Below, one piece after another: positions 1,992-11,963 of a DNA stretch of 25,758 bases. Position numbers and translations under genes: made by a program. Location of the stretch: positions 1-25,758 of the IMG/VR virus record IMGVR_UViG_3300021079_000030; one strand, written 5' to 3'. Source of the DNA: a virus. The notes beneath the pieces were generated by a model. That model saw nothing but the letters and a program-made list of their open reading frames with translations, searched no databases and was not told where the DNA came from. Each line of letters begins with the position of its first letter. Within the stretch, counting starts at the first letter, position 1.

Positions 1992-2504
1992 ATGCAAAAC
2001 TTAGTTCCAATTACACGTTTAGGTAAGTTCTTCGGTGGTGAAGATCTCTCACTTGATATTGGTATGGGAGAAGAATGGTTATTGGGGGATATGAATTTCA
2101 CAATTATACTTTATCGTATTGATAGATATAAAACAAAAACTGATGATGTTTATGGTGAAGTTCTTGAAGATGGAATTCAGTTCTTGGCTCCAATTGAATT
2201 GAAGGGTCTTGTTCAAATCATGGCTCCATCCAATAAATTATTGGGTAGTTCAAAGGTTAAACAAGATGAACCAGGTAATATGAAATTTTCAATATATCAA
2301 AAAACTTTGGACGACCTTAGTGTGAATATTTTTATGGGTGATTATATTGGATACCACGAAACTGAAGATAGAGTTAGATATTATACGGTGATTGATGATG
2401 GTCTTGTTGTTTCTGATAACCGCCACTCGTATGGAGGCGTAAAGCCTTTCTATCGTAGTATAACCGCTACATATGTAAGTACTAATGAATTTAGAGGATT
2501 ATAA
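1992..2504 (+). CDS. Probable neck / head-tail connector protein (T4 gp14-like)
   Basis: The protein has 170 residues with no signal peptide or membrane segment. I see loose similarity to the T4 gp14 neck family: a VYGEVLEDG segment (about 54-62) resembling the IFGED region of that family, and a C-terminal half with MGDYIGY, a YYTVIDDG strand and VKPFYRSITATYV (about 149-161), like the GDLI...FEI...PFYQ layout of gp14. Its position just ahead of a gp15-like gene and the sheath agrees, because T4 genes 13, 14 and 15 build the neck and finish the tail top. Homing-type nucleases lie on both sides, which often marks a conserved essential gene as the invasion site. Another connector or head-completion protein is the main alternative. 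Assignment rests mostly on context. Confidence 0.45.
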   Translation: MQNLVPITRLGKFFGGEDLSLDIGMGEEWLLGDMNFTIILYRIDRYKTKTDDVYGEVLEDGIQFLAPIELKGLVQIMAPSNKLLGSSKVKQDEPGNMKFSIYQKTLDDLSVNIFMGDYIGYHETEDRVRYYTVIDDGLVVSDNRHSYGGVKPFYRSITATYVSTNEFRGL

Positions 2505-2505
2505 T

Positions 2506-3120
2506 ATGAAAAAGTGTAATAAATGTAACCTTGAAAAAAAAATTTGTTTTTTTAATAAAAAAACTGACTCAAAAGACGGACATCATCCATCTTGTAAAGA
2601 ATGTCGTAAAAATTTACATAAATTATATTACGAGGAAAAGAAATCAGAATTATTAGAATATCAAAAAAAGTATTATTCAAATAATAATGAAAAAGTTAAA
2701 AATAGGCAAAAAAATAAAAGAAAAAACAATCCAATAATATCCAAAGAATATGACTTGAAAAGAAGGTCAAAAAGAAAAATATATTTTAAAGAATATTTTT
2801 ATAAAAGAAGAAATGAAGACATTTTATTCAAAATATCTCATAACCTAAGAGGTAGAATATATAAATTTGTTCAAAATAAATCAAAATCCACAAAAACTAT
2901 TGTTGGATGTTCTTATTTACAAATTAAAGACCATTTGGAAAAACAATTTAATGATGGTATGTCTTGGGATAATTACGGATATTATGGTTGGCATATTGAC
3001 CACATAATACCACTATCATCCGCAAATAATGAAGATGAGGTTTATAAGCTTTGTCATTATACAAACCTTCAACCACTTTGGGCTGAAGATAATCTAAAGA
3101 AAAGTAATAAAATAATATAA
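2506..3120 (+). CDS. HNH endonuclease with N-terminal zinc ribbon
   Basis: This 204-residue, very lysine-rich protein has a zinc ribbon made by C4xxC7 and C30xxC33. A basic helical linker follows (about 45-110). The C-terminal HNH nuclease has WHIDHIIPLS (162-171), the central asparagine in NLQPLW (187-192), and the final N and K in EDNLKKSNK (194-202). Such enzymes cut DNA with one metal ion and behave as free-standing homing endonucleases in phage genomes. I start it at 2506 rather than the in-frame ATG at 2485. MKKCNKC is the usual start of this family, and 2506 avoids a 20-base overlap with the neck gene. Its TAA shares one base with the ATG of the next gene (TAATG). It has no promoter motif of its own and splits a neck/tail-completion pair. 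Confidence 0.88.
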   Translation: MKKCNKCNLEKKICFFNKKTDSKDGHHPSCKECRKNLHKLYYEEKKSELLEYQKKYYSNNNEKVKNRQKNKRKNNPIISKEYDLKRRSKRKIYFKEYFYKRRNEDILFKISHNLRGRIYKFVQNKSKSTKTIVGCSYLQIKDHLEKQFNDGMSWDNYGYYGWHIDHIIPLSSANNEDEVYKLCHYTNLQPLWAEDNLKKSNKII

Positions 3121-4438: not shown

Positions 4439-7400
4439 ATGGCAACAGCACAAGCAAACAAAAAAGTATTCGTATCACCTGGAGTATACACATCCGAAAC
4501 GGACTTATCATTCGTAGCTCAAAGTGTCGGTGTAACGACATTAGGTATAGTTGGGGAAACAATTAAAGGCCCAGCTTTTGAACCAATCTTCATAACTAAC
4601 TACGATGAGTTCCAAGCCTATTTTGGTGGAACAGAACCCGTTAAATTTGTGAACACACAAATTCCAAAATATGAGGCGGCTTATATAGCTAAATCATATT
4701 TGCAACAATCAAACCAACTTTTCGTAACGAGAGTGTTAGGATTATCGGGATACGATGCGGGTCCTTCTTGGACAATCAGCGTAACAGCAAATGTTGACCC
4801 TTTAACTATTGGGTTTAGTCCGTCTTCAGCAGGAACTGTATTTACAGCTACTTTTGTAGGTAGTAATTCTGCAAATACGATTACATTGAATACTTCAACT
4901 TTACCTGTAACAATGCAGGATAGTTACACTAGTCAATATAGATTAAGTGACGGAAGTGTTTCAACATTAAAAAATGATTTTAATTATTACATTAGTAATA
5001 TTACTGACACTTCAGGTGCTTCAGGTAATACTTGTGTGGTTTATGGTTCAATACCATCTTCAGATTGGTCTTCGTTAACAGGTAGTTACCCTAACTTAAA
5101 TAACGTGTTTGGTGTGCCTGGTGATTGTGATTATGAATATAACGATTTAAGCTCAGGTTCAAATGACCCTTGGTATTATGCAAACTTTGATAACTACTCC
5201 GCGGATAACTATTCGGGTTATTCTTTTGATTATATTGTTAGTTCAGTAGTATCAGGTGCTGGCGATTCATATTCAGGATCAATATCAGGTACCATATATA
5301 CTTTCTCAGGAACAGCATATAGTGAATATAACAACATGGTTGTTGCTACATTACGTTCAAGAGGTATTTCTCTTTATACAAATAACGCTGATTCTGAAAA
5401 TCACGGACCTATATATGAAACAACAGGATTAACAATGGTTTGTAATGGTTCATATTCTGGTGTAAGTACAAATCCTTATGGAACATTCTTATTATCAGGT
5501 GCAACTAAAGACAATACAACATTCCAATTTGAGACTTCATTATTGGCGTCTTCTTCAAAATATATTACAAAAGTATTTGGGGAAGATAACTTTGGTAAAT
5601 CAAGATATACAGTCCCTGTATTTGTTGAAGAATCTTATCAAGCATCATTAAACATTGCGTATCAAAAAGGTTATATTAAAGGATTAAATTGTTCATTAAT
5701 TGATCTTCCAGATGCTAGAAGTGAAGATAATACATCAATTGCTTATAGTTTAGAACAATACCAATCACCTGAAACACCATTTTTAGTTTCAGAATTAAGA
5801 GGTAATAAAGTTTATAATTTATTTAAATTCATATCAATTTCTGATGGTGATTCTGCAAATATGGAAGTTAAAGTTTCAATTGCAAATCTTTCATTTAATA
5901 ACATGTCATTTGATGTATTAGTTAGAAATTTCTACGATACAGATGCTGCTCCTGTTGTAATTGAAAAATTTACTAATTGTAATATGGATCCAGGTTCTAA
6001 CAACTTTATTGGTGTTAAAATTGGTACATCAAGTGGTGAATACGCTTTGATTTCAAAATACATCATGGTTCAATTGGCTGACGGAGCACCTATAGATGCA
6101 ATTCCTTGTGGATTCCGTGGATATACTCAAAGAGAATATTATAATGTTTCTGAGTATCCATCACCATATATCCAATATAAAACAAAATATTTCTATCCAG
6201 GTGAAACAATTACCGATCCTCCATTTGGTGGTTCTGCAAACACAACAGAATCTGCGGGAGATATTGTTAGAAGAGCTTATTTAGGTTTCTCAACTCAATA
6301 TGGTGTTGATGAATCGTTCTTAACTTATAAAGGAAAACAAACACCATCTAGTTGGATTTCAAACCCAACACAAGCGGCAGAACCTTGGAATATTCAAAGT
6401 AAAGGTTTCCATATGGATTCAGGTGCTACTGTTGTAACAATCGCAAACACTTATCAAACAAGTGGTCAAACTGCTTTTGAATGTGGTACAGCAGATTTTA
6501 GATTTGACCCTGAGTCTCAAGAAAATCCTTATTACTTTATTTACTCAAGAAAATACACAGTATGTTTTGCAGGTGGATTTGACGGATGGGATATATACAG
6601 AGAACACAGAACAAATACAGATAATTTCCAATTAGGTTCAAGTGGTTATTTAGCTGGAGCATATCCTTCTTCAAGATATCCAAACGCAACAGGAGATGGT
6701 TTATTCAAAAGAATTGTTGTACAAAATAACACTCAAGACTTTGGAAATACTGACTACTACGCTTACGACTACTACGCTTACTTACTTGGTATTCTTAGTT
6801 TTGCAAATCCTGAATCTACAAACATCAATATTTTTGCAACTGCAAGTATAGATTATGTTAATAACTCTAACTTATGTGAAGAGGCTATTGATATGATTCA
6901 ATATTCAAGAGCTGACTCAGTTTATATCGTAACGACTCCTGACTATAATATGTTCACTGCAGATGCTTCAAGTCAATATGATGTTATCTATTCACAGGAA
7001 GCAGTTGATAATTTAGACAACACAGGAATTGATTCAAACTATACCGCAACTTACTATCCTTGGATTTTAACAAGAGACACAGTAAACAATACACAAATTT
7101 ATTTACCTCCAACAGGTGAAGTTGTAAGAAACTTAGCTCTAACAGATAATATTGCATTCCCTTGGTTCGCATCAGCGGGTTACACAAGAGGTCTTGTAAA
7201 TTCAATCAAAGCTAGACAAAAATTAACACAAGAAAATAGAGATACATTGTATCAAGGTAGAATTAACCCTATCGCTACTTTCTCTGATGTTGGTACTGTA
7301 ATTTGGGGTAATAAAACTTTACAAGTTGCTGATTCAGCTTTGAACAGATTAAATGTAAGAAGATTATTATTACAAGCTCGTAAATTAATATCTGCTGTCG

Positions 7401-7654
7401 CTGTAAGATTATTGTTTGAACAAAACGATCAAATAGTTAGACAACAATTCTTAGATAGTGTTAACCCAATCTTAGATTCAATTAGAAGAGATAGAGGTTT
7501 ATACGATTTCCGTGTAACAGTTTCTTCAACACCTGAAGACTTAGATGCAAATAGATTAGTAGGTAAAATATACCTTAAACCAACGAAGGCTTTAGAGTTC
7601 ATTGATATTGAATTCTTCATTACTCCAACAGGAGCTTCGTTTGAGAATATTTAA
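4439..7654 (+). CDS. Contractile tail sheath protein (T4 gp18 family), enlarged
   Basis: The protein has 1071 residues, against 659 in T4 gp18. The N-terminus (FVSPGVYTSETDLS, 11-24; then GIVGETIKGPAFEP) and the C-terminal domain are typical sheath sequences: RRLLLQARKLISAVA, FEQNDQIVRQQFLDSVNPIL, and a final strand ending in IDIEFFITPTGASF. Sheath subunits form helical rings around the tail tube and contract to drive injection. The extra length sits in Ser/Gly/Tyr-rich segments between the N- and C-terminal domains, for example about 115-360. These probably form surface domains on the sheath exterior. An exact five-codon duplication (DYYAY twice, residues 772-781) lies in the middle. It has its own promoter motif and a terminator hairpin directly after, in keeping with very high expression. 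Confidence 0.93.
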   Translation: MATAQANKKVFVSPGVYTSETDLSFVAQSVGVTTLGIVGETIKGPAFEPIFITNYDEFQAYFGGTEPVKFVNTQIPKYEAAYIAKSYLQQSNQLFVTRVLGLSGYDAGPSWTISVTANVDPLTIGFSPSSAGTVFTATFVGSNSANTITLNTSTLPVTMQDSYTSQYRLSDGSVSTLKNDFNYYISNITDTSGASGNTCVVYGSIPSSDWSSLTGSYPNLNNVFGVPGDCDYEYNDLSSGSNDPWYYANFDNYSADNYSGYSFDYIVSSVVSGAGDSYSGSISGTIYTFSGTAYSEYNNMVVATLRSRGISLYTNNADSENHGPIYETTGLTMVCNGSYSGVSTNPYGTFLLSGATKDNTTFQFETSLLASSSKYITKVFGEDNFGKSRYTVPVFVEESYQASLNIAYQKGYIKGLNCSLIDLPDARSEDNTSIAYSLEQYQSPETPFLVSELRGNKVYNLFKFISISDGDSANMEVKVSIANLSFNNMSFDVLVRNFYDTDAAPVVIEKFTNCNMDPGSNNFIGVKIGTSSGEYALISKYIMVQLADGAPIDAIPCGFRGYTQREYYNVSEYPSPYIQYKTKYFYPGETITDPPFGGSANTTESAGDIVRRAYLGFSTQYGVDESFLTYKGKQTPSSWISNPTQAAEPWNIQSKGFHMDSGATVVTIANTYQTSGQTAFECGTADFRFDPESQENPYYFIYSRKYTVCFAGGFDGWDIYREHRTNTDNFQLGSSGYLAGAYPSSRYPNATGDGLFKRIVVQNNTQDFGNTDYYAYDYYAYLLGILSFANPESTNINIFATASIDYVNNSNLCEEAIDMIQYSRADSVYIVTTPDYNMFTADASSQYDVIYSQEAVDNLDNTGIDSNYTATYYPWILTRDTVNNTQIYLPPTGEVVRNLALTDNIAFPWFASAGYTRGLVNSIKARQKLTQENRDTLYQGRINPIATFSDVGTVIWGNKTLQVADSALNRLNVRRLLLQARKLISAVAVRLLFEQNDQIVRQQFLDSVNPILDSIRRDRGLYDFRVTVSSTPEDLDANRLVGKIYLKPTKALEFIDIEFFITPTGASFENI
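6752..6781 (+). repeat. 15-bp exact tandem repeat, two copies, in sheath gene
   Basis: The unit gactactacgcttac occurs at 6752-6766 and 6767-6781 and encodes DYYAY twice (residues 772-781). The exact DNA identity suggests a recent duplication. Confidence 0.9.
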
Positions 7655-8630: not shown

Positions 8631-9119
8631 ATGGCTGATTTACTAATGAAAATGCCGATTCCTTACGAACCGAAACGTCAGAACCGATTCATCTTGAGGT
8701 TTCCTTCAAGCTTAGGAATAAATGAGTGGTTCGTGGAAAGTGCGAAAAGACCATCTATCAAAATTGCTTCAACAGAAATACAATTTTTAAATACATCAAC
8801 ATTTGTTGCAGGTAGATTTAATTGGGATGAAATTTCAGTTAAATTTAGAGACCCAATTGGGCCTTCAGCGGCTCAAGCTCTTATGGAGTGGGTTCGTTTA
8901 CATGCTGAGTCTGTAACAGGTCGTATGGGATATGCTGCAGGTTATAAGAAAGACATTGACTTGGAGATGTTAGACCCAACAGGAGTAGTTGTTGAAAAAT
9001 GGATCCTTTATGGAACATTTTTAACAAGTGTAGATTTTGGAGCTCTTGGATATTCAACAGATGCTTTAGCTGATATTACAGCTTCATTAAGAATGGACAG
9101 ATGTGTTTTAGTATACTAG
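8631..9119 (+). CDS. Tail tube protein (T4 gp19 family)
   Basis: The protein has 162 residues, against 163 in T4 gp19. Family features are the N-terminal RQNRFILRFPSSLGI (16-30), a SAKRPSIKIAS strand (38-48) and the NWDEISVKFRDPIGPSAAQA segment (64-83). The loop near WVRLHAESVTGRMGYAAGYKKD and the late strand VEKWILYGTFLTSVDFG also fit. The protein stacks as hexameric rings inside the sheath and forms the channel for DNA. It has its own upstream TATTTATA motif and an intrinsic terminator after it, so it can be made independently and in large amounts. It directly precedes the gp26-like gene and the tape measure, an order shared with many tailed phages. Confidence 0.93.
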   Translation: MADLLMKMPIPYEPKRQNRFILRFPSSLGINEWFVESAKRPSIKIASTEIQFLNTSTFVAGRFNWDEISVKFRDPIGPSAAQALMEWVRLHAESVTGRMGYAAGYKKDIDLEMLDPTGVVVEKWILYGTFLTSVDFGALGYSTDALADITASLRMDRCVLVY

Positions 9120-9157: not shown

Positions 9158-9192
9158 AACCGTAAAGACATAAACTTTACGGTTATTTTTTT
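9158..9192 (+). terminator. Strong intrinsic terminator (or leader attenuator) before the gp26-like gene
   Basis: A perfect 10-bp stem, aaccgtaaag (9158-9167) with ctttacggtt (9175-9184), has a 7-base loop and is followed by seven T residues (9186-9192). The T-tract ends two bases before the next ATG. It most simply terminates the tube transcript, but the motif at 9127 lies upstream of it. Confidence 0.85.
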
Positions 9193-9194
9193 AT

Positions 9195-9938
9195 ATGGAC
9201 AATCAAACACAAAATTACGCACAACAGAATTTCACACTTCCTCACGATGTGGTTCCATTGCCTTCGCAAGGAACTTTTTATAAAAATAAAAAGAAGTCAG
9301 TTAAGATTGGTTATTTGACCGCATCTGATGAAAATATTTTAATGGCAGGAGGAGATGACATAACTACCAATTTAATTAAGAGTAAGTTATATGAACCTGA
9401 TATTAGAGTTGAAGATTTATTAGAAGGAGATGTTGAAGCAATTCTTATCTTCTTAAGAAACACTTCATTTGGACCTGAATTAACAGTTAATGTAACAGAC
9501 CCAACAACAAAAAAATTGTTTCAAACAAAAGTTGTTTTAGATGAACTTAATGTTATTAAAGGTCAAGAACCATCAGAAGATGGAACATTTGTTGTAACAC
9601 TTCCAAAATCAAAAAGTATTATTAAGTTAAGACCTATGACATATGGTGAAATTATCAATATAAATAAGATGAGTGAATCATATCCACAAGGGAGAACAAT
9701 ACCTAAAGTAACTTGGAGACTTGAAAAACAAATTGTTGAAATTGACGGAAATATAAACAAAGGAGACATCGCTAAATTTATTGAACAAATGCCAATTATG
9801 GATTCAAAATTCATCAGAAATTTTATGGATGAAAATGAACCAAGATTAGATATGAACAGAGTAGTAACAACCCCATCAGGAGATATACTGACAGTCAACG
9901 TCGGTTTTGGGGTGGAGTTTTTTCGTCCTTTCTTCTGA
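9195..9938 (+). CDS. gp26-like baseplate/tail assembly protein; probable tail assembly chaperone, frame 0
   Basis: The frame-0 product has 247 residues. It matches the T4 gp26 type of baseplate protein: VVPLPSQGTFYKNKKKSVKI (19-38), then YLTASDENILMAGG, then VEDLLEGDVEAILIFLRNTSFG (about 72-93). It closes with VGFGVEFFRPFF, which looks like a natural family C-terminus. T4 gp26 acts in baseplate hub assembly. Here the gene sits exactly between tube and tape measure, where other tailed phages encode the tail assembly chaperone pair made by ribosomal frameshifting. An open frame in the +1 register overlaps its end (9892-10077) and lacks a useful start codon. Shift-prone runs GGGG (9909-9912) and TTTTTTC (9918-9924) lie in the overlap. 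A fused product would have about 293 residues. The family call is fairly firm; the chaperone role is inferred. Confidence 0.7.
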   Translation: MDNQTQNYAQQNFTLPHDVVPLPSQGTFYKNKKKSVKIGYLTASDENILMAGGDDITTNLIKSKLYEPDIRVEDLLEGDVEAILIFLRNTSFGPELTVNVTDPTTKKLFQTKVVLDELNVIKGQEPSEDGTFVVTLPKSKSIIKLRPMTYGEIININKMSESYPQGRTIPKVTWRLEKQIVEIDGNINKGDIAKFIEQMPIMDSKFIRNFMDENEPRLDMNRVVTTPSGDILTVNVGFGVEFFRPFF

Positions 9939-10077
9939 TTATAGAAAAGGACAACTTGATGAGTTTTTTTATTTAAATACTCTACTCAAGATTACATGGC
10001 AAGATTTTGAACGAATGCCCATATTTGTAAGAAAATATCTATTAGACAAATGGATTGAAAATAACGCGAAGGACTAA
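9892..10077 (+). CDS. Frameshift-dependent C-terminal extension of the gp26-like protein (+1 frame)
   Basis: The +1 frame is open from 9892 (after a TGA at 9889-9891) to TAA at 10075-10077. It encodes a helix-rich tail: FFVLSSDYRKGQLDEFFYLN, then LLKITWQDFERMP, then VRKYLLDKWIENNAKD. This looks like real protein and like the small C-terminal parts of tail assembly chaperones. The only in-frame ATG is at 10015, which would leave just 20 codons; TTG at 9907 is the other possible start. Fusion to the upstream gene by a +1 (or -2) shift between 9909 and 9924 explains the arrangement best. An assembly indel in the G or T run is the main alternative. The stop codon is within the 5' arm of a hairpin (10069-10093). 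Confidence 0.65.
   Translation, partial: QSTSVLGWSFFVLSSDYRKGQLDEFFYLNTLLKITWQDFERMPIFVRKYLLDKWIENNAKD
9909..9924 (+). other. Candidate ribosomal frameshift site
   Basis: In frame 0 the codons are GGG GTG GAG TTT TTT CGT. A glycyl-tRNA on GGG (9909-9911) could re-pair with GGG one base on (9910-9912). A phenylalanyl-tRNA on TTT (9921-9923) could re-pair with TTC (9922-9924), the better match for its usual GAA anticodon. Both give the +1 frame of the extension. A -2 slip on the six T residues would reach the same frame. I cannot choose between them from sequence. Confidence 0.45.
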
Positions 10078-10093
10078 AAAAAAATTAGTCCTT
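10069..10093 (+). terminator. Hairpin spanning the stop codon of the extension
   Basis: Perfect 9-bp arms aaggactaa (10069-10077) and ttagtcctt (10085-10093) enclose a loop of seven A residues. No T-tract follows (cttctattt comes next), so it is not a classical terminator. Five bases after it begins the next TATTTATA motif. It may limit read-through into the tape-measure promoter or protect the 3' end. Confidence 0.5.
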
Positions 10094-10118: not shown

Positions 10119-11963
10119 ATGGGTCCCGAAGACGAAACATCAGAACAGTATAATAAAACATTAAAAGATGCGTTAGACTTTAGTCTTGATAAGTTTGTTC
10201 AGTATACTGACGAAATGATTAAGGGAGGTAATGCAATGACCCAAGCTTTTGGAGGTTCTAGAGCAAGGGTTAGCGAGATGATGAGTGCAGTTAGTGAAGC
10301 TGCACCAAAAATGAGAAGACTTGGCGCTGACTTTAATCAAACATTAACGTCAATGCAAGATATTGCAAAGGCAACAGGTAAAAATACTTTAGCTTCTGCG
10401 GATAGTGTTTCTAAGTTATATGCAACTACTAAAGTCATTGGTGGAACTGTTGAAAACATTGCTAAGACGTTTACTGAAGTCGGAATTCAATTTGGGATTG
10501 TTGGTAACGAACTGGAAAAATCTGTAGTATCTGTTAGAGATATGGGTTTAAATGCTGAAACAGTAATGAAATCCGTAGTTGAAAATGCCTCTAAACTTAA
10601 TAAATATAATTTTGAAGGAGGTGTACAAGGTCTTACTAAAATGGCTGCAAGGGCGGCAATGCTTAGATCTGACATGTATGAAACGTTTAATTTTGCTGAA
10701 CAAGTTATGGATCCTGAAAATGCTGTTGCAATGGCATCAACGTTTCAAAGACTTGGAGTTTCAGTTGGAAATCTTGCCGACCCGTTTGCGTTGATGAACG
10801 CTTCTATTAATGACCCAGGAGCACTTCAAGAAAGTATTGCTAAGGCAGCTCAAGCATATACAACATTTGACGAAAAAACCAAAACATTCAAGATGAATCC
10901 TCAAGGAATGTTAACACTTAGACAGATGGCTAAGGAAACTGGTATGAGTTATGAAAATTTATCTAAGATGGGTTTAGCCGCTGCAGATCTTGATAAGAGA
11001 TTATCACAAATTAGCCCAACTCTTAATTTTAAAGATGAATCAGACAAACAATTTCTATCCAATTTGGGTGAAATGGATGCTTCAGGAAATTATGTTGTTA
11101 AAATTAATGATTCACAAAGCAAAAATCTTGCAGATGTAACACAAGAAGAATTTGATAAATTAATTGAAGAACAAAAAAATGCTCCCAAAACAATGGAAGA
11201 CATTGCAAAAGCGTCAATGAAATCTGGTGAAATTTTGGTAAATGAAGTTGGTGCAATTAAAGAAGCGGTTGTTAGAGGTGCAGTATCAACATCATTTGTT
11301 AAAGATAATTTAGAGTCTTTTAGAAGAATAATCACAGTTCCAGCAACGGCAGGAGCAAACACATTTGCTAAGACTGAACTTTTTAATACACAATTTGAGA
11401 AAGCATCCAATTCACTTAGAGATGCTGCAGCACAAATGGCAGACAAAAATAATAAGAAGTCAATGGGTGAAATAATTAATGATCTTGGTAGTAAGTTTAA
11501 AGATCAAGGTGGTGAGATTAGTGCAATTATGACAAATTTACTACCACAATTTACTAAACAAATAAGTGACCAAAATTATAAAAAAGGAAGTAGTGAGATT
11601 GGAGAAATGGCAAATCAATTTATTGCGGTAGCAAAAGAAAAATTAGGTGGTGGGAAAGCGGAAACAACATTATCGCAAAACAAAACAAATACAAAAAAAC
11701 TAACACAAGCTCAAATGGTCGCTAATACTTTATATGGAACAGAATCATTAAATAAAACAACAAATCAAAACCAACCATTAACATCTGTGGTTGCTCAAAG
11801 TGCCAACAATACCAATACTCATACAGGAACTATTACAATTAAAATAGATGCTCCAAATCTTGATACTCAACAATTGATACAAATTTTTAATAAAAAAGAA
11901 GTACAAGAAGCCATTTGGAATGCTAATTATAAACAAGATAAAGAAATGGGAAAGGTTAAGTAA
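10119..11963 (+). CDS. Tape measure protein (T4 gp29-like role)
   Basis: The protein has 614 residues (T4 gp29 has 590) and is rich in Ala, Lys, Met and long predicted helices. It carries the kind of TMP core seen in tail length regulators, with repeated short helices such as EMMSAVSEAAPKMRRLGADF, MQDIAKATGKNTLASADSVS and LRQMAKETGMSYENLSKMGL (about 268-287). The C-terminal 120 residues are Asn/Gln/Thr-rich and end in a small strand region (GTITIKIDAPNL). Tape measures set tail length at about 0.15 nm per residue, which would give roughly 90 nm if this gene alone decides it. The gene order tube, assembly protein, tape measure supports the call. There are no obvious lytic or transmembrane segments, though hydrophobic helices near 95-125 deserve a check. 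Confidence 0.72.
   Translation: MGPEDETSEQYNKTLKDALDFSLDKFVQYTDEMIKGGNAMTQAFGGSRARVSEMMSAVSEAAPKMRRLGADFNQTLTSMQDIAKATGKNTLASADSVSKLYATTKVIGGTVENIAKTFTEVGIQFGIVGNELEKSVVSVRDMGLNAETVMKSVVENASKLNKYNFEGGVQGLTKMAARAAMLRSDMYETFNFAEQVMDPENAVAMASTFQRLGVSVGNLADPFALMNASINDPGALQESIAKAAQAYTTFDEKTKTFKMNPQGMLTLRQMAKETGMSYENLSKMGLAAADLDKRLSQISPTLNFKDESDKQFLSNLGEMDASGNYVVKINDSQSKNLADVTQEEFDKLIEEQKNAPKTMEDIAKASMKSGEILVNEVGAIKEAVVRGAVSTSFVKDNLESFRRIITVPATAGANTFAKTELFNTQFEKASNSLRDAAAQMADKNNKKSMGEIINDLGSKFKDQGGEISAIMTNLLPQFTKQISDQNYKKGSSEIGEMANQFIAVAKEKLGGGKAETTLSQNKTNTKKLTQAQMVANTLYGTESLNKTTNQNQPLTSVVAQSANNTNTHTGTITIKIDAPNLDTQQLIQIFNKKEVQEAIWNANYKQDKEMGKVK

Follow-up and report, generated by a model that had tools for sequence, protein, structure and literature searches.

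Predicted +1 frameshifting extends a T4 gp26-like protein in an uncultivated virus and probably brings T4-type phages under the tail-chaperone rule

The gp26-like gene and its overlapping frame

How is a protein-like reading frame expressed when it opens within the end of one gene, runs past the stop codon of that gene and offers hardly any start of its own? The question is raised by the 25,758-base record of an uncultivated virus (IMG/VR IMGVR_UViG_3300021079_000030), the whole of which is hereafter called the window, and which carries a contractile-tail gene block. The gene concerned, related to T4 gp26, is read in frame 0 from the ATG at 9195 to the TGA at 9936-9938, and a second frame in the +1 register is open from 9892 to 10077, with a single ATG at 10015, leaving 20 codons, and one TTG at 9907. 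These coordinates reproduced those of a first-pass annotation of the window, which had proposed a programmed frameshift yielding a fusion of about 293 residues; a +1 slip at the TTTTTTC run (9918-9924) computes to exactly this length (243 + 50). We consider it very probable that the gp26-like gene gives rise, by +1 frameshifting, to a chaperone pair comparable to gpG and gpGT of phage lambda.

The assignment to the gp26 family was upheld by matches of the frame-0 protein to Pfam PF12322 (T4_baseplate; E 9e-9, 35.7 bits compared with a curated cut-off of 24.5) and to PHROG_150 (baseplate hub; E 8e-14). Its placement between tail tube (8631-9119) and tape-measure-like (10119-11963) genes, likewise anticipated, agrees with a PHROG_4542 tube match upstream and, downstream, with position and a weak match to PF10145; the same order is repeated in LIS04, Flavobacterium phage immuto and Bacillus phage SP-15. 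With regard to known systems, frameshifted tail chaperones using +1, -1 or -2 shifts have been described, T4 being named as an exception to this conserved frameshift, and the lambda model assigns tape measure binding to G and tube recruitment to T (PMC5009743).

Evolution of the extension as a protein

Viral contigs were scanned with the gp26-like protein, and the 80 closest relatives (70-95% identity, 52 distinct sequences) were compared. The stop of the gp26 frame occupies the same position in all of them except locus L076, where it comes two codons later, and the long open frame is always in the +1 register, two of the contigs ending within the extension. Among the 52 distinct sequences, the ratio of nonsynonymous to synonymous substitutions (dN/dS) in the extension is 0.105, at a proportion of synonymous differences (pS) of 0.63 and with zero stops in the +1 frame, whereas the other two frames give thousands of stop-codon comparisons. 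In the same set, third-position variation just 5' of the slip site is 0.37, which is normal for frame 0; between the slip site and the stop, no codon position varies by more than 0.08, and downstream of the frame-0 stop the variation follows the +1 frame. The constrained frame therefore switches at the TTTTTTC run. Judged from these substitution patterns, the extension evolves as a protein in the window's clade, under purifying selection in the +1 frame only.

The comparison was widened to 319 gp26-family loci, drawn from broader scans and named phages and each extending 150 bases or more beyond the stop; some contigs were fetched twice, and those with a resolved junction comprise 262 distinct sequences. 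An out-of-frame open reading frame (ORF) that overlaps the stop and continues for at least 35 codons beyond it is present at 319/319 of these loci, compared with 125 of 765 other long ORF ends at the same loci. A sequencing error, a decayed gene or a chance open frame is accordingly a next to negligible explanation: hundreds of independent contigs and finished phage genomes share the arrangement, the extension is under purifying selection, and 0.4% of base shuffles of the +1-frame stretch stay free of stops over 61 codons. The comparative data thus speak against the indel artefact that the first-pass annotation had named as a way of being wrong; the overlapping arrangement, as read across these genomes, is real, and together with the low dN/dS it supports the proposed programmed frameshift into a C-terminal extension.

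Slip site and direction of the shift

All 52 distinct close relatives keep the core TTT_CGY_CCT_TTC_TTC, preceded by TTT or TTC. Their A-site codon is CGT or CGC in 52/52, although the remainder of these genes has CGT or CGC at only 13 of 511 Arg positions and prefers AGA; in the window, CGN makes up about 6%, and CGT 5%, of Arg. Across the window's group, the slipping codon is UUU and the next base C in 121/121 distinct sequences, and CGN fills the A site in 120 of the 121. Taking all +1 loci together, every distinct sequence has UUU in the P site (191/191), and in 190 of them a pyrimidine, C or T, comes next, which allows tRNA-Phe to re-pair after a +1 shift. Furthermore, the predicted slip sites lie within the overlap in 315/315 cases. 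The alignment of homologues thus bore out both the register, which is +1 in the close relatives, and the slip site.

The first-pass annotation had left the choice between a +1 and a -2 shift open. Entry into the +1 frame by a -2 ribosomal shift, which would add one extra Phe and which the six-T run of most members would permit, appears very unlikely, since members reading TTC_TTT_CGN re-pair poorly after -2 and the occurrence of UUU then a pyrimidine in 190/191 fits +1 re-pairing. A +1 shift is favoured, and in the TTC_TTT_CGN members it is the second of the two Phe codons that must slip, with UUU giving way to UUC. Slippage of RNA polymerase on the T run, giving indel mRNAs that join the frames, would suit the homopolymer run of most members, but six T is short for such slippage, the TTC_TTT members interrupt the run, and the rare CGY codon is conserved, a feature relevant to ribosomes and not to the polymerase; we regard this origin as highly improbable.

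Two slip runs had originally been put forward, GGGG and TTTTTTC. The latter stands, as UUU_CGU, while GGGG was ruled out as a slip site by six distinct sequences that have a +1-frame TAG between GGGG and the T run. A GGG codon is nonetheless found at this site in 117/121 sequences, compared with about 7% of Gly codons in general, and may be stimulatory, although this role is uncertain because the window genes have no obvious Shine-Dalgarno sequence ahead of 9195 or 10119. A stop-assisted +1 shift was also discarded as a requirement, loci L076, L104 and L110 having no adjacent stop.

As regards +1 sites elsewhere, that of influenza A PA-X reads UCC_UUU_CGU, and the rarity of CGU was remarked there too (PMC8310308). 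It shares the UUU_CGU core and the rare CGU in the A site with the window, but virus, gene and host are unrelated and the likeness is one of motif only. Phages HSTV-2 and Listeria phage PSA likewise use +1 frameshifts in tail genes (PMC5009743), although in other genes or at other sites, PSA relying on a proline codon beside a stop or a pseudoknot.

Distribution across the gp26 family

The frame of each extension was assigned with hidden Markov models (HMMs) of the extensions, which confirmed 316 of the 319 loci, 231 in the +1 frame (for instance SP-15, LIS04, vB_SagM-GXN1, immuto and Mel-JY01) and 85 in the -1 frame (for instance Melnitz, P-SSM4, HTVC008M, phiAS5 and RL38J1), with zero matches in reverse-strand control frames. 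The three unconfirmed loci (XacN1, Atu_ph07 and PA5oct) have an open -1 frame starting at a T run. PHROGs did not recognise the window's extension, and a viral-contig scan with the LR756508 protein returned zero relatives. In the -1 relatives, the slip site is T_TTT_TTN in 71/71 distinct sites tallied. The +1 and -1 fusion profiles align across the junction (E 1e-15), and the extensions alone at E 2e-9; on a quick tree of 129 rows, whose deep branches are long and weakly placed, only two changes of shift direction are needed. The feature that had been ascribed to this phage is therefore present in the window without being peculiar to it: it is family-wide, with a -1 shift in other branches. 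One conserved position would thus be served in three ways, by slippage in the +1 or the -1 direction or, as discussed below, by gene duplication, and a widespread predicted +1 site (UUU_CGN or UUU_UGG) is revealed in phages.

Two side observations concern the -1 loci. A Shine-Dalgarno-like GAGG or GGAG lies about 10 nucleotides before the -1 heptamer in 62/63 distinct sequences (12 expected), L090, L273 and L307 being among these loci; the spacing is dnaX-like, and conserved Glu-Gly codons could equally cause the motif. In Rhizobium phage RL38J1 (L338, 3585-3904), an annotated repeat region overlaps the gp26 end and the -1 extension, near the record end.

These loci also bear on whether the extension might be a separate small protein, made without any fusion by internal initiation or coupled re-initiation. 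The TTG at 9907 could provide such a start, and the annotations of Melnitz, P-SSM4, HTVC008M and SP-15 list comparable products as short genes of their own. Yet at 52 loci the shifted frame lacks any ATG, GTG or TTG close to the junction, zero start codons are conserved, the invariant slip sites in overlaps down to 7 nucleotides would be left unexplained, and T4 gp51 holds a gp26-like part and the extension in one chain. A separate protein is on these grounds unlikely, and the frameshifted fusion, if correct, would amend the annotation of many genomes that either omit the extension or list it as a gp51 in its own right.

T4 gp26, gp51 and the short gp51 of cyanophages

In T4, gp26 and gp51 are each recognised by PF12322 and by PHROG_150. 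The alignment of T4 gp51 with the -1 fusion profile runs across the junction, covering positions 23 to 280 of 299 (E 5e-9 at Z=1000), and gp51 of Acinetobacter phage Stupor aligns likewise (E 2e-10), while the gp26 proteins of T4 and Stupor stop at the slip position. The extension of the -1 group alone matches the C-terminus of T4 gp51 (E 2e-5 at Z=1000); that of the window's clade is linked to it only via intermediates, the pooled extension profile reaching E 0.018. T4 gp51 thus resembles the predicted fusion in holding a gp26-like part plus an extension, but genes 26 and 51 are separate and divergently oriented, and downstream of T4 gp26 neither an extension nor a visible frameshift was found. 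The earlier statement that T4 is not known to use the frameshift consequently holds as far as the shift itself goes, yet the two forms are encoded there as paralogues.

In a 2010 comparison, cyanophage gp51 was described as about 20% of the T4 length, the first ~200 residues being absent (PMC3037559). In Prochlorococcus phage P-SSM4, the gene called gp51 falls in the -1 extension of gp26, and by this criterion of position and frame the short "gp51" of cyanophages is that very extension. Cyanophages and pelagiphages share with the window an extension in another frame after gp26 and a Phe-Phe or Phe-Leu slip site; they differ in using a -1 shift at T_TTT_TTN and in being annotated with two genes. 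The Straboviridae member phiAS5 retains the frameshift arrangement.

The simplest reading of these profile matches suggests that the gene was duplicated in the T4 lineage, with the short form retained by one copy and the fused form by the other, and with a direction of change that we infer. It would explain why cyanophage gp51 lacks the first ~200 residues, and it leads one to expect joint action of gp26 and gp51 on gp29, the tape measure of T4. T4-type contractile phages would then probably be no exception to the frameshifted tail-chaperone rule, gp26 of most relatives forming a G/GT-like pair by +1 or -1 shifting, and T4 and its near relatives having duplicated the gene into a short gp26 and an extended gp51. 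T4 is the textbook contractile tail, and its poorly understood gp26 and gp51 become candidate halves of a chaperone system whose function is directly testable.

Structure and proposed chaperone function

The gp26 part, with AlphaFold2, and the extension were modelled separately. The model of the gp26 part has a mean predicted local distance difference test score (pLDDT) of 88, and the extension is predicted to form three helices (mean pLDDT 89). Re-alignment of 986 solved chains ranked 2ob9, the tail assembly chaperone of HK97, highest (Z 5.1, root mean square deviation 4.0 over 87 of 104 residues), the next reaching 2.6; this is suggestive of a shared fold between the modelled gp26 part and 2ob9. 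A sequence search of solved structures returned only zinc-finger proteins at marginal E.

Like lambda gpG/gpGT and P2 E/E+E', the gp26 family would combine a position between tube and tape measure with short and frameshift-extended products; the shift differs, being -1 in lambda and +1 at UUU_CGN here, and no sequence match is detectable. T4 gp26 and gp51 are listed among the hub assembly chaperones (PMC3004832), and the Stupor record labels gp26, gp51 and gp28 as tape measure protein assembly chaperones; the chaperone part of the idea is therefore not new. Searches of the open-access literature, which leaves most subscription journals uncovered, turned up no previous account of a frameshift in the gp26 family, and priority is not claimed. 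The lambda analogy survives testing, and a G/GT-like chaperone role, to be understood by that analogy, would be the best explanation for the gp26 family.

We can propose the following mechanism. Ribosomes would reach UUU_UUU_CGU close to the end of the gp26-like gene, where a fraction of them would stall, the P site being occupied by UUU (Phe) and the A site by the rare arginine codon CGU. The P-site UUU (9921-9923) would then slip +1 to UUC (9922-9924), giving two products in a set ratio, the short gp26 of 247 residues and a gp26-extension fusion of 293. By analogy with lambda gpG/gpGT, both products would associate with the tape measure protein, and the longer, minor one would use its helical extension to recruit the tail tube subunit during tail assembly.

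Several points weigh against this proposal. The Z of 5.1 for 2ob9 is modest, and a Foldseek search of the gp26 model against the PDB gave no significant match (best E 0.35). The Pfam search gave no match to a phage tail assembly chaperone (TAC) family, PF12322 alone passing the cut-off; by sequence the protein is thus not a known TAC family member, and appears to be a gp26-family protein working like one. In the +1 clade, folding revealed no consistent downstream (3') RNA structure (12 sites folded, with z below -2 only for L141, L090 and L307), and efficiency may therefore be low. Uncultivated contigs supply most of the evidence, and this evidence documents the conservation of the gene, register, slip site and extension, from which slippage, its efficiency and the chaperone role are in turn deduced.

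Locus features and neighbouring genes

The features of the locus are collected in Table 1. Two inverted repeats flank the gp26-like gene, CCGTAAAG...CTTTACGG (9160-9192) on its 5' side and AAGGACTAA...TTAGTCCTT (10068-10092) directly 3' of the extension; each is followed by a pyrimidine or T-rich stretch and resembles a terminator hairpin, and the two would separate the gp26 cistron from its neighbours.

Table 1. Coordinates of the gp26-like locus and adjoining genes in the window
Feature	Coordinates	Strand	Basis or remark
Tail tube gene, upstream neighbour	8631..9119	+	PHROG_4542 tail tube, E 9e-23
gp26-like gene, frame 0, short product of 247 residues	9195..9938	+	PF12322, PHROG_150
Open +1 frame holding the extension	9892..10077	+	61 codons plus stop
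Conserved GGGG with Gly codon GGG; possibly stimulatory, excluded as slip site	9909..9912	+	GGG in 117/121 distinct sequences of the window's group
Predicted slip site UUU_UUU_CGU	9918..9926	+	P-site UUU 9921-9923 would slip to UUC 9922-9924; UUU then C in 121/121
C-terminal extension after the predicted shift, 50 codons and stop, three predicted helices	9925..10077	+	dN/dS 0.105, model mean pLDDT 89, extension HMMs
Frame-0 stop TGA of the short product	9936..9938	+	Position kept in relatives; two codons later in L076
Tape-measure-like gene, downstream neighbour	10119..11963	+	Weak PF10145 match below cut-off, plus position

Elsewhere in the window, known sheath profiles cover only about the last 290 residues of the tail sheath protein (4439-7654, 1071 residues) and do not reach its large N-terminal portion. 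A possible HNH endonuclease (PF01844, below cut-off) lies at 2485-3120, inside the structural gene block. On the minus strand, a SET-domain protein (PF00856, E 4e-14) is encoded at 629-1024 and adjoins an SNF2-type helicase fragment at 3-629.
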